Assembly (NCBI RefSeq): GCF_900343025.1
Contig: NZ_OUND01000005.1
Span: 186,001 to 250,000 of the forward strand
Length of the DNA stretch: 64,000 nt
DNA from: Arsenophonus endosymbiont of Aleurodicus floccissimus
GTDB taxonomy: Bacteria; Pseudomonadota; Gammaproteobacteria; Enterobacterales; Enterobacteriaceae
Direction: 5' to 3'
Shown here: positions 14,813 to 48,148 of the stretch, one piece after another
Position numbering within the stretch: position 1 is the first letter of the stretch
Layout of the letters: each line of letters begins with the position of its first letter
Program-made: the position numbers and the translations under genes
Notes under the pieces: generated by a model
The model's database searches: none
Told to the model about the DNA's origin: nothing
Seen by the model: only the letters and a program-made list of their open reading frames with translations

Positions 14813-14944
14813 CAAGTTAGCATGTCGATATTTGGGGCTATGGGTAACTTTGTTAAACTTAGACTGGTATTTTTTTATTGAAAAGAGATTTTATTAATTT
14901 TTATGTGCTTTTAACTCGTTAGATGAAATATGAGGAAAGTTAAA

Positions 14945-15319
14945 ATGAAAAAAGCAAGTTTGTTATTATCGTTTCTTTTCTGTTGTTCATTTTCAATTAT
15001 GGCATCTGTGCCAGATGGTATTACGGTATTTGCTAGCCAAAAAGAAGACGGTAGTATTTCTTCTGTAAAAAAATCCTATTACACAAAAACATTTCATGTT
15101 ACGGTGGTAAATGCGTCTGAAAAATACATTGATCTATCTAAATATTGTTTCAAAGCTTTTTTAGGTTCAAGAGAGTTTAAGGTAGATACTATTGATGAGA
15201 ATTTACATAATAAAGTGCTAAAAAATAACGAAAGTGCAAAAGGCATGATAGTATTTGCATCTATTAATCGTGATATTAATAAAGCAGCAGTGGTTAAATT
15301 AACTGATAAATGTAAATAA
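14945..15319 (+). CDS. Small secreted protein, DUF4354-like
   Basis: A 124-residue protein with a clear signal peptide (MKKASLLLSFLFCCSFSIMA) and a mature domain containing DGITVFASQKEDGSISS, KSYYTKTFHVTVVNAS, DLSKYCFKAF, and a terminal VKLTDKC. The two cysteines could form a disulfide. A GAGGAAAG ribosome site precedes ATG 14945; the ATG at 14930 is too far upstream. It resembles periplasmic DUF4354 proteins of Proteus/Providencia, from memory and not searched. It is intact in a region where neighbours are broken. Function is unknown. Confidence 0.7.
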   Translation: MKKASLLLSFLFCCSFSIMASVPDGITVFASQKEDGSISSVKKSYYTKTFHVTVVNASEKYIDLSKYCFKAFLGSREFKVDTIDENLHNKVLKNNESAKGMIVFASINRDINKAAVVKLTDKCK

Positions 15320-15339
15320 TAACTGATAAATGTAAATAA
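15302..15339 (+). repeat. 19-bp tandem duplication at the 3' end of the DUF4354-like gene
   Basis: The last codons and stop (ACTGATAAATGTAAATAAT) are repeated immediately downstream (ACTGATAAATGTAAATAAA). This is a recent slippage-type duplication. It leaves the protein unchanged because the first copy keeps the stop. Confidence 0.85.
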
Positions 15340-17482: not shown

Positions 17483-18415
17483 TCAATAATCAAAGGCAGT
17501 CAGTAACTGAGTTTCAAATTCTTTAATCGTAATTTTTAGGCATTGAATAAATCGTTCGGTAAGTTCAGAAGAAGGCCGATGCATTGGTTTAATTAAATTG
17601 ACATTGAAAGGAATGGGTTTAATAAAAGGTCTGATGCAAAGGCTATCAGGATCATGCTGTAAAAAATCGATAAAGGTAAATGGGTTGACGATTGATATAC
17701 CTAATCCTTCCCTTACCATAACACAAACAGAGGAAGTATTATGGACTTCCATTATCATTCGCCGGCTAATATGTTGTTCTGCAAAAAATGTATCAACGGC
17801 TTGTCGATAACTATCCGTTATTGAAAGACTAATAAAAGCAACATTATTAAAATCTTTAGCAGTTAAATATTTTTTTACTCAGTGGGTGCATACGAGGTAA
17901 CACAACGACTTCATTTAGGCTAGTTAAAATGTCACCAGAGGTGCCGGTGGGTATCTGCCGATGTTCTCTGTCAAACCTATATCATAATGTTGTGCCGAAA
18001 GCCATTCCTCTAATATAGGTGACTCTTGAGAGGTAATGGTAAAGTTAACTTCAGGGTAATCGAGTAGAAACCGCTTACAGGCTTTAGGTAATAACGACTG
18101 ACTAAATACCGGTAAACAGGCAATTGAAAGTTGAGTATCTCTAAATTGTCTGATAATTTCCGCCATATTATAGATCCTTTCTAATCCATAATAAGAACGT
18201 TCGACTTCTGCGAATAACCTTAATCCCTGAGCCGTTGGCAATAGCCGTCCTTTGATCCTATCAAATAACTTAAATCGTAACAGACTTTCTAGACGACTAA
18301 TTTCACGGCTGACGGTAGGCTGAGATGTTCTAACTAATTGTGCTGCATCGGTTAGGTTTTTGGTGGTCATGACCGCGCGAAAAATTTCTATATGACGCCA
18401 GGAAAAAGTTTTCAT
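17483..18415 (-). pseudogene. lysR: LysR, activator of lysA (broken)
   Basis: The N-terminal frame from 18415 has the LysR-type winged helix (WRHIEIFRAVMTTKNLTDAAQ, then TSQPTVSREISRLE) and the effector domain start (LSIACLPVFSQSLLP, EEWLSAQHYDIGLTE). Frameshifts near 17940 and in an A-run near 17870 break the middle. The C-terminal frame (SSVCVMVREGLGISIVNP, then LIKPMHRPSSELTERF) runs to the stop at 17483. It is divergent from lysA with the usual short intergenic region, in which LysR would bind. Loss parallels the decay of lysA itself. Confidence 0.92.
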
Positions 18416-18536: not shown

Positions 18537-19947
18537 ATGACAACGTTTGCAACCACCATAAGTCTATGTTTGACGGCAGAACAATTAATTAAATTGCCCG
18601 CTCAATTCGTGACTCCTATTTGGATCTACGATAGTGAGGTCATTACACAGGCGATTAAGCAGTTAGCTGCGTTCGATGTGATCCGTTTTGCACAAAAAGC
18701 GTGCTCCAATATTCATATTTTACGTTTGATACGTCAACAAGGCGTGAAAGTTGATGCTGTATCATTAGGCGAAATCGAAAGGGCGTTAGTTGTAGGTTTT
18801 CGCCCAGGTAGAGAACAAGCCGAAATTGTGTTCACCACAGATGTCATTGAAAAGCAAACTATTGAGCGTGTAATAGAGTTAGATATTTCCGTTAATGTCG
18901 GCTCTATTGACATGCTCGTTCAATTGGAAAAAGCCAAACGACATCATCCTATTTGGTTACGTATTAATCCAGGGTTTGGCCATGGACATAGCCAAAAAAC
19001 CAACACCGGTGGAGAAAATAGTAAGCACGGTATCTGGTTTAGTGATCTGCCATTAGCGATTGAAAAAATTAATCAGTATCAGTTAACGCTGGTCGGTATA
19101 CATATGCATATTGGTTCTGTGGTTGATTATTGCCACTTGGCTAAAGTCTGTGAGGCAATGGTAGAACAGGTCATCTTAAGTGGCTGTGATATACAAGCAA
19201 TTTCAGCTGGTGGAGGATTGTCAATCCCTTATAATTTAGCTGAAAAGCGAATTGATATTAACCATTATTTTGCCTTGTGGCATGGTGCTCGCGAACGTAT
19301 TTCAGCTCATTTGGGGCATCATATAACGTTGAAAATTGAGCCAGGTCGTTATTTGGTAACAGAATCTGGCGTGCTTTTAGCTGAAGTAAGAGCAATCAAA
19401 AGAATGGGCAAAAATCATTATGTGTTAGTTGATAGTGGTTTTAATGATCTAATGCGTCCTCTATGTATGGTTGTTATCATCATATTTCTGTCTTGCCAGC
19501 GTATAATCGTGATCTTACTGACGGAAATTTACGTGAAACACTAGTAGCTGGTCCTTTATGTGAGTCTGGTGATGTTTTTACCCAGGCAAATAGCGGTGCT
19601 GTTGTTCCTCGTTTATTACCTGAAATTTATGTGGGAGATTATTTAGTCTTTCATGATACTGGTGCTTATGGTGCTTATGGTGCTTATGGTGCTTATGGTG
19701 CTTATGGTGCTTATGGTGCTTATGGTGCTTATGGTGCTTATGGTGCTTATGGTGCTTATGGTGCTTATGGTGCTTATGGTGCTTATGGTGCTTATGGTGC
19801 TTATGGTGCTTTAATGTCTTCTAATTATAATAGTCGACCGTTAATCGCTGAGGTAATGTATTAAATGGTTAGGCAAAATTAATTCGTCGGCGTCAAACAT
19901 TAGCAGAATTGTTGGCATTAGAAACGTGTTTGATAAGTAGTGATTAA
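18537..19947 (+). pseudogene. lysA: Diaminopimelate decarboxylase, frameshifted and carrying a 16-copy GAY expansion
   Basis: The PLP-dependent last step of lysine synthesis. The N-terminal barrel is good: FAQKACSNIHILR holds the PLP lysine, then SLGEIERAL, HMHIGS, and IEPGRYLV. A one-base deletion near 19462 shifts the frame between DLMRP and MYG. The C-terminal frame continues CESGDVF to VFHDTGAYG, where the active-site GAY motif is repeated 16 times by a 9-bp tandem array before ALMSSNYNSRPL. A second indel near 19857-19865 precedes the C-terminal LIRRRQTLAELLALE, ending at TAA 19947. No active enzyme is expected. Confidence 0.94.
19661..19810 (+). repeat. 9-bp minisatellite (GGTGCTTAT) x16 inside lysA
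   Basis: Sixteen perfect head-to-tail copies occupy 19661-19804, followed by a partial GGTGCT. Each encodes Gly-Ala-Tyr. Homologues have a single GAYGA at this point, so 15 extra units (45 residues) have been inserted at the conserved catalytic loop. The copies are identical, so the expansion is very recent or still active. It is in frame with both flanks. Confidence 0.97.

Positions 19948-47085: not shown

Positions 47086-48148
<1,063 letters not shown>

Follow-up and report, generated by a model that had tools for sequence, protein, structure and literature searches.

The lysA locus and its tandem array

The window, by which we mean the whole 64,000-nucleotide stretch of the Arsenophonus genome that was analyzed, contains a tandem array inside a gene that is identified by profile TIGR01048 as lysA, encoding diaminopimelate decarboxylase. 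Tandem Repeats Finder (TRF) reports this array on the forward strand at 19660 to 19811 with a period of 9, 16.9 copies of TGGTGCTTA, 100% matches, and zero indels. An exact search likewise finds GGTGCTTAT repeated 16 times without a mismatch at 19661 to 19804, with a partial copy directly after, so that the 16 flawless 9-bp copies described in the initial annotation, and with them the presence of the array in the assembly, are confirmed. Three exact GGTGCTTAT units in succession occur at this site alone in the genome (14 overlapping matches, all of them here). Five 1-Mb sequences were simulated with a first-order Markov model of the base transitions of this genome. None contained a perfect array that reaches 34 bp and 3 copies with units of 5 to 30 bp, and the lysA array is therefore not a product of chance.

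The gene around the array is broken. We called its lesions by alignment to the lysA loci of Arsenophonus nasoniae (L009), the Aphis craccivora symbiont (L031; hereafter Ash), and a third genome of the genus, G004 (L091). The 5' part, recognized by its TIGR01048 match and this alignment, runs on the forward strand from the start codon to the first frameshift (18537 to 19460), where a one-base deletion relative to all three relatives (19460 to 19461) destroys the lysA frame 200 bp upstream of the array. The open frame then continues out of register to a stop codon that ends at 19544, 115 bases before the array, and because the deletion lies upstream, no LysA begun at the start codon extends into the repeat. 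A second open frame of 133 amino acids on the same strand (19463 to 19864) carries the Gly-Ala-Tyr repeat together with a C-terminal part of LysA (TIGR01048 positions 319 to 378), and it is terminated by an early stop at 19862 to 19864 that follows from a second one-base deletion (19861 to 19862), again relative to all three relatives. Just beyond it, the old lysA frame has a TAG nonsense codon at 19870 to 19872 where the three relatives have GAG.

A functional LysA would be expected to cover the profile in a single uninterrupted frame and to exceed the curated cut-off of 297.9 bits. Here the coverage is split between two frames (positions 7 to 315 and 319 to 378 of 417), and each part scored alone stays below the cut-off, with 272.2 bits for residues 1 to 306 of the 5' part and 65.6 bits for the 3' frame. 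For comparison, A. nasoniae lysA is open over 425 residues, the first 420 of which score 413 bits. The lysA gene of Ash carries two one-base deletions of its own that differ from those described here, so selection on the gene is relaxed in that symbiont, too. It had been proposed that the array adds 45 residues in frame to a catalytic LysA, but the gene is multiply broken and the array lies behind a frameshift. A functional 45-residue insertion is thus rejected by the split frames, the deletions, the TAG codon, and the profile scores below the cut-off: lysA is a pseudogene, and no working active site gains residues.

Decay may extend to both flanks of the gene. A divergently oriented LysR-family regulator on the reverse strand (17483 to 18415) is, like lysA itself, broken; its two pieces at 17924 to 18415 and 17483 to 17758 match profile NF008239 at positions 1 to 152 and 220 to 303 of 309, respectively. 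On the other side, an ORF of 303 amino acids covers, for that ORF alone, positions 465 to 770 of the 816-position FadE profile. With lysA broken, its LysR neighbor split, and the FadE-matching ORF partial, the array resides in decaying DNA. A plasmid search with the lysA region as query gave no match.

The seed of the repeat in related genomes

At the site of the array, Ash, G004, and G001 each have TGGTGCTTATGGTGCTT, which amounts to 1.9 copies of the unit in all three relatives aligned, and the symbiont studied here has gained 15 units or 135 bp over them. This short sequence corresponds to the codons of GAYGA, a motif conserved in LysA that we take to be located in the active site of the enzyme; a chance repetition within its codons enabled it to supply a seed. 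In all of the 80 best loci, out of 443 related ones, GAYG occurs exactly once before xxMSS, reading GAYGASMSS in 77 and GAYGSSMSS in 3. The initial annotation had claimed that the GAYGA motif of lysA seeded the array, and both the 1.9 copies in three relatives and the single motif in these 80 loci bear this out. The alignment of lysA across sister genomes that it had suggested agrees as well, since growth of the array is absent from all three relatives aligned. The closest solved LysA structures are those of E. coli (PDB 1KNW and 1KO0), to which the motif aligns. Functional LysA (TIGR01048; PDB 1KNW and 1KO0) is thus homologous to the gene studied here and has the seed at the same place, whereas the frameshifts, the nonsense codon, and the array set the latter apart from a working enzyme.

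Near-identical head-to-tail copies and a short ancestral seed in relatives are, next to a copy number that varies between strains, features of a slippage-derived minisatellite or variable number tandem repeat (VNTR), and the lysA array shows the first two, with 16.9 copies at 100% match and a seed in 3 of 3 genomes aligned. In a sample of 394 genomes from the order, a degenerate pattern for DNA of the GAYGAYGA type matched in only 2, with 15 matches here and one in G308, whose surroundings do not look lysA-like as judged by eye. The idea that lysA is a preferred site of such growth is therefore not supported.

Perfect short-unit arrays across the genome

A census of perfect arrays (minimum 34 bp and 3 copies) covered the window and 55 further stretches of this genome, together 1,124,130 bases or 37% of the total, and found 28. 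These correspond to about 26 places, since L230 and L236 each contain two neighboring arrays. As the window had been chosen for its array, the count can also be given without it and is then 27 in 1,060,130 bases. The units are 6 bp (3 arrays), 7 bp (3), 8 bp (14), 9 bp (6), 16 bp (1), and 22 bp (1) long and thus fall between 6 and 9 bp for 26 of the 28 arrays. The same census yielded 5 arrays in 398,944 bases of Ash, one in 400,000 bases of G004, and none in 380,000 bases of G003, which we take to be the relative ARAD. Compared to this genome, the array density is not significantly different in Ash (p = 0.17) but differs in G004 (p = 0.0025) and G003 (p = 0.0006) in two-sided binomial tests that were each taken singly and include the window. 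Half of the arrays here (14/28) are at least 100 bp long, as opposed to 0/5 in Ash and 0/1 in G004. The highest number of arrays per base and the longest arrays among the four sampled genomes are therefore those of the one genome whose recA is broken (see below).

Seeds were traced in relatives for 5 of the 28 arrays, i.e., lysA and four others whose names, where given, reflect our reading of open frames by eye. In Ash, the comF-like array has a counterpart of about 2.4 imperfect copies; in relatives, the EamA-like array corresponds to about 2 and the array in L157 to two to three copies, imperfect in both cases. For the mgsA-like array, about one copy is present in G004 and G001, while Ash fails to align across the site. 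Four other sites thus went from one to three copies to an array just as lysA did, and the suggestion that a catalytic motif is a special repeat seed is not supported: the lysA site is not special because other sequences in the genome expanded likewise.

Repair genes and the array load

The recA gene of this symbiont is located on the forward strand in the same window (47104 to 48050), and its TIGR02012 match is divided between different frames (profile positions 1 to 272 and 240 to 320, with 4 and 1 stops inside, respectively), in line with the earlier description of the gene as broken. Among eight other genomes of the genus, a profile search finds recA intact in 5, including Ash, G003, and G004, and without a match in G002, G006, and G008. 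For recJ (TIGR00644), there is no match in this genome; the gene is matched in 4 of 9 genus genomes and intact in Ash, G001, and G004. By contrast with these losses, mutS and the C-terminal domain of exonuclease I (ExoI) are both intact here and are matched in 8 and 7 of 9 genus genomes, respectively. Taken for itself, the lack of a recJ match alongside a broken recA is a notable loss of repair genes.

One alternative to growth at lysA as a matter of local decay is a mutator state in which the loss of recA, with or without that of recJ, raised tandem-repeat growth throughout the genome. It would fit that the three other genomes sampled for arrays all have an intact recA while the gene is broken in this one, that recJ has no match here, and that this genome has the most arrays per base of the four and is alone in having arrays that reach 100 bp. 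However, Ash has 5 arrays despite intact recA and recJ, at a density that does not differ significantly from the one seen here, while ARAD (G003), which has an intact recA but no match to recJ or the ExoI C-terminal domain, has none. Furthermore, the intact mutS and ExoI domain in this genome speak against a mutator, and the association concerns a single lineage; arrays were sampled in four genomes (this one, Ash, G003, and G004), and three further genomes of the genus, G002, G006, and G008, have no recA match. The E. coli work cited in PMC4627823 describes tandem-repeat rearrangement as RecA-independent and as raised in DNA polymerase III mutants. We regard a mutator state as doubtful. Neither loss can be the sole cause, as Ash combines intact recA with arrays and ARAD lacks arrays without a recJ match. 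No simple repair-gene cause emerges from these two patterns; the broken recA is compatible with slippage, but a role as its driver is unsupported so far.

Reliability of the assembled copy number

The assembly comprises 3,001,875 bases in 11 contigs with an N50 of 510,728, and PMC6167482 gives the same figures for ARAF, an Arsenophonus symbiont from the whitefly Aleurodicus floccissimus. It further lists 1,213 pseudogenes and a coding density of 41% for ARAF, as well as a size of 3,080,136 bp for ARTV, its relative from Trialeurodes vaporariorum. As described there, the ARAF reads are 2 × 100-base mate pairs with 3-kb inserts from whole-genome amplified DNA (GenomiPhi), which were assembled with SPAdes followed by GapFiller and manual extension by iterative mapping. 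Reads of 100 bases cannot span 152 bases, and 16 is thus an assembled and not a measured copy number.

It could accordingly be argued that all or most of the array's length is a product of assembly in which gap filling or manual extension walked repeatedly along a short repeat. The combination of amplified DNA, short mate pairs, and the steps listed in PMC6167482 would allow this, the 152-bp length of the array may stem from the assembler or gap filler, and 13 of the 28 arrays exceed 100 bp. Yet ARAD, which according to the text of the same study (PMC6167482) was processed by the same methods, has no array in 380,000 bases; 10 of the 28 arrays are shorter than 80 bp and fit within single reads; and the 5 arrays of Ash were found in a separately deposited complete genome (NZ_CP038155.1). 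These three observations suggest that the pipeline does not account for the arrays as such, and we consider an artifact at lysA improbable. Arrays that are longer than a read should not be counted in short-read assemblies of symbionts.

Origin of the lysA array

The reading that we favor, at a probability of roughly 85%, is that slippage during replication acted on a seed present by chance in lysA, now a pseudogene, of a decaying symbiont under relaxed selection. Growth would have started from a direct repeat of 17 bp and 1.9 copies that lies in lysA only owing to the codons for Gly-Ala-Tyr-Gly-Ala. Slipped-strand mispairing during replication would then have lengthened this seed into the perfect array, in a gene that is now a pseudogene and was probably already free of selection, a condition that may have let the array persist. 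Slippage had also been named as the process by the initial annotation and is the likely one, with the proviso that one sequence alone cannot separate slippage from unequal exchange. The copies are identical, which suggests that the array is young, and the setting of decay is supported by three further lesions in lysA as well as the lysR and recA genes of the window, both of which are broken. Short-unit arrays inside genes act as switches in some bacteria, but a function of the repeat as such a length-variable contingency locus, which would need a frame-changing unit in a living gene, is very hard to credit here because units of 9 bases cannot shift the frame, lysA is disabled by other lesions, and the neighboring lysR is split.

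Relation to known repeats and further observations

VNTRs serve as typing markers for Wolbachia and Xylella fastidiosa (PMC3287509, PMC7331650). The lysA array resembles them in its short head-to-tail units, and Wolbachia is likewise a symbiont of insects, but the array differs in being located within a recognizable pseudogene with a seed that is legible in relatives, and it is known from one strain. A second parallel is given by the Portiera genomes of whiteflies, which PMC7821994 portrays as unstable and rich in repeats. Portiera, too, is a whitefly symbiont with repeats and lost genes for replication or repair; the gene reported there as lost is dnaQ, whereas the losses noted here are a broken recA and the lack of a recJ match, and the symbiont studied here is another bacterium, whose decay is less advanced. 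In the Arsenophonus literature on tandem repeats, minisatellites, or VNTRs, judged by title, we found no report of such arrays.

Taken alone, the lysA array represents ordinary decay by an ordinary mechanism, and it is the genome-wide load of 6- to 9-bp arrays that is mildly interesting. This load might tentatively, and against the odds as we judge them, be seen as a burst of minisatellite birth in which dozens of chance repeats of one to three copies, in and outside open frames, became perfect arrays with a narrow preference for 6- to 9-bp units after the loss of recA and perhaps recJ. If true, the lineage would display the transition from seed to array at many sites simultaneously. Because close relatives still show the short precursors of new arrays, this lineage offers a way to test how minisatellites are born, which unit lengths they prefer, and how far they depend on repair genes.

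Several individual repeats deserve mention. The longest array (L234, 14815 to 15150) spans 336 bp with 37.3 perfect copies of a 9-bp unit and reads as Asn-Asn-Ser repeats in an open stretch of 235 amino acids on the reverse strand. In Ash, a 9-bp array of 7.8 copies (L169, 9319 to 9388) encodes Glu-Gln-Ala repeats directly before the matched radical-SAM region of ThiC and is perhaps another case in which a seed in a conserved gene has expanded. The adjacent pairs in L230 (14251 to 14424) and L236 (13720 to 13837) each consist of two side-by-side arrays with related but different 8-bp units and look as if one had derived from the other. Within the window itself, a perfect 20-bp duplication (2 copies, 15300 to 15339) is located at the 3' end of the ORF at 14930 to 15319.
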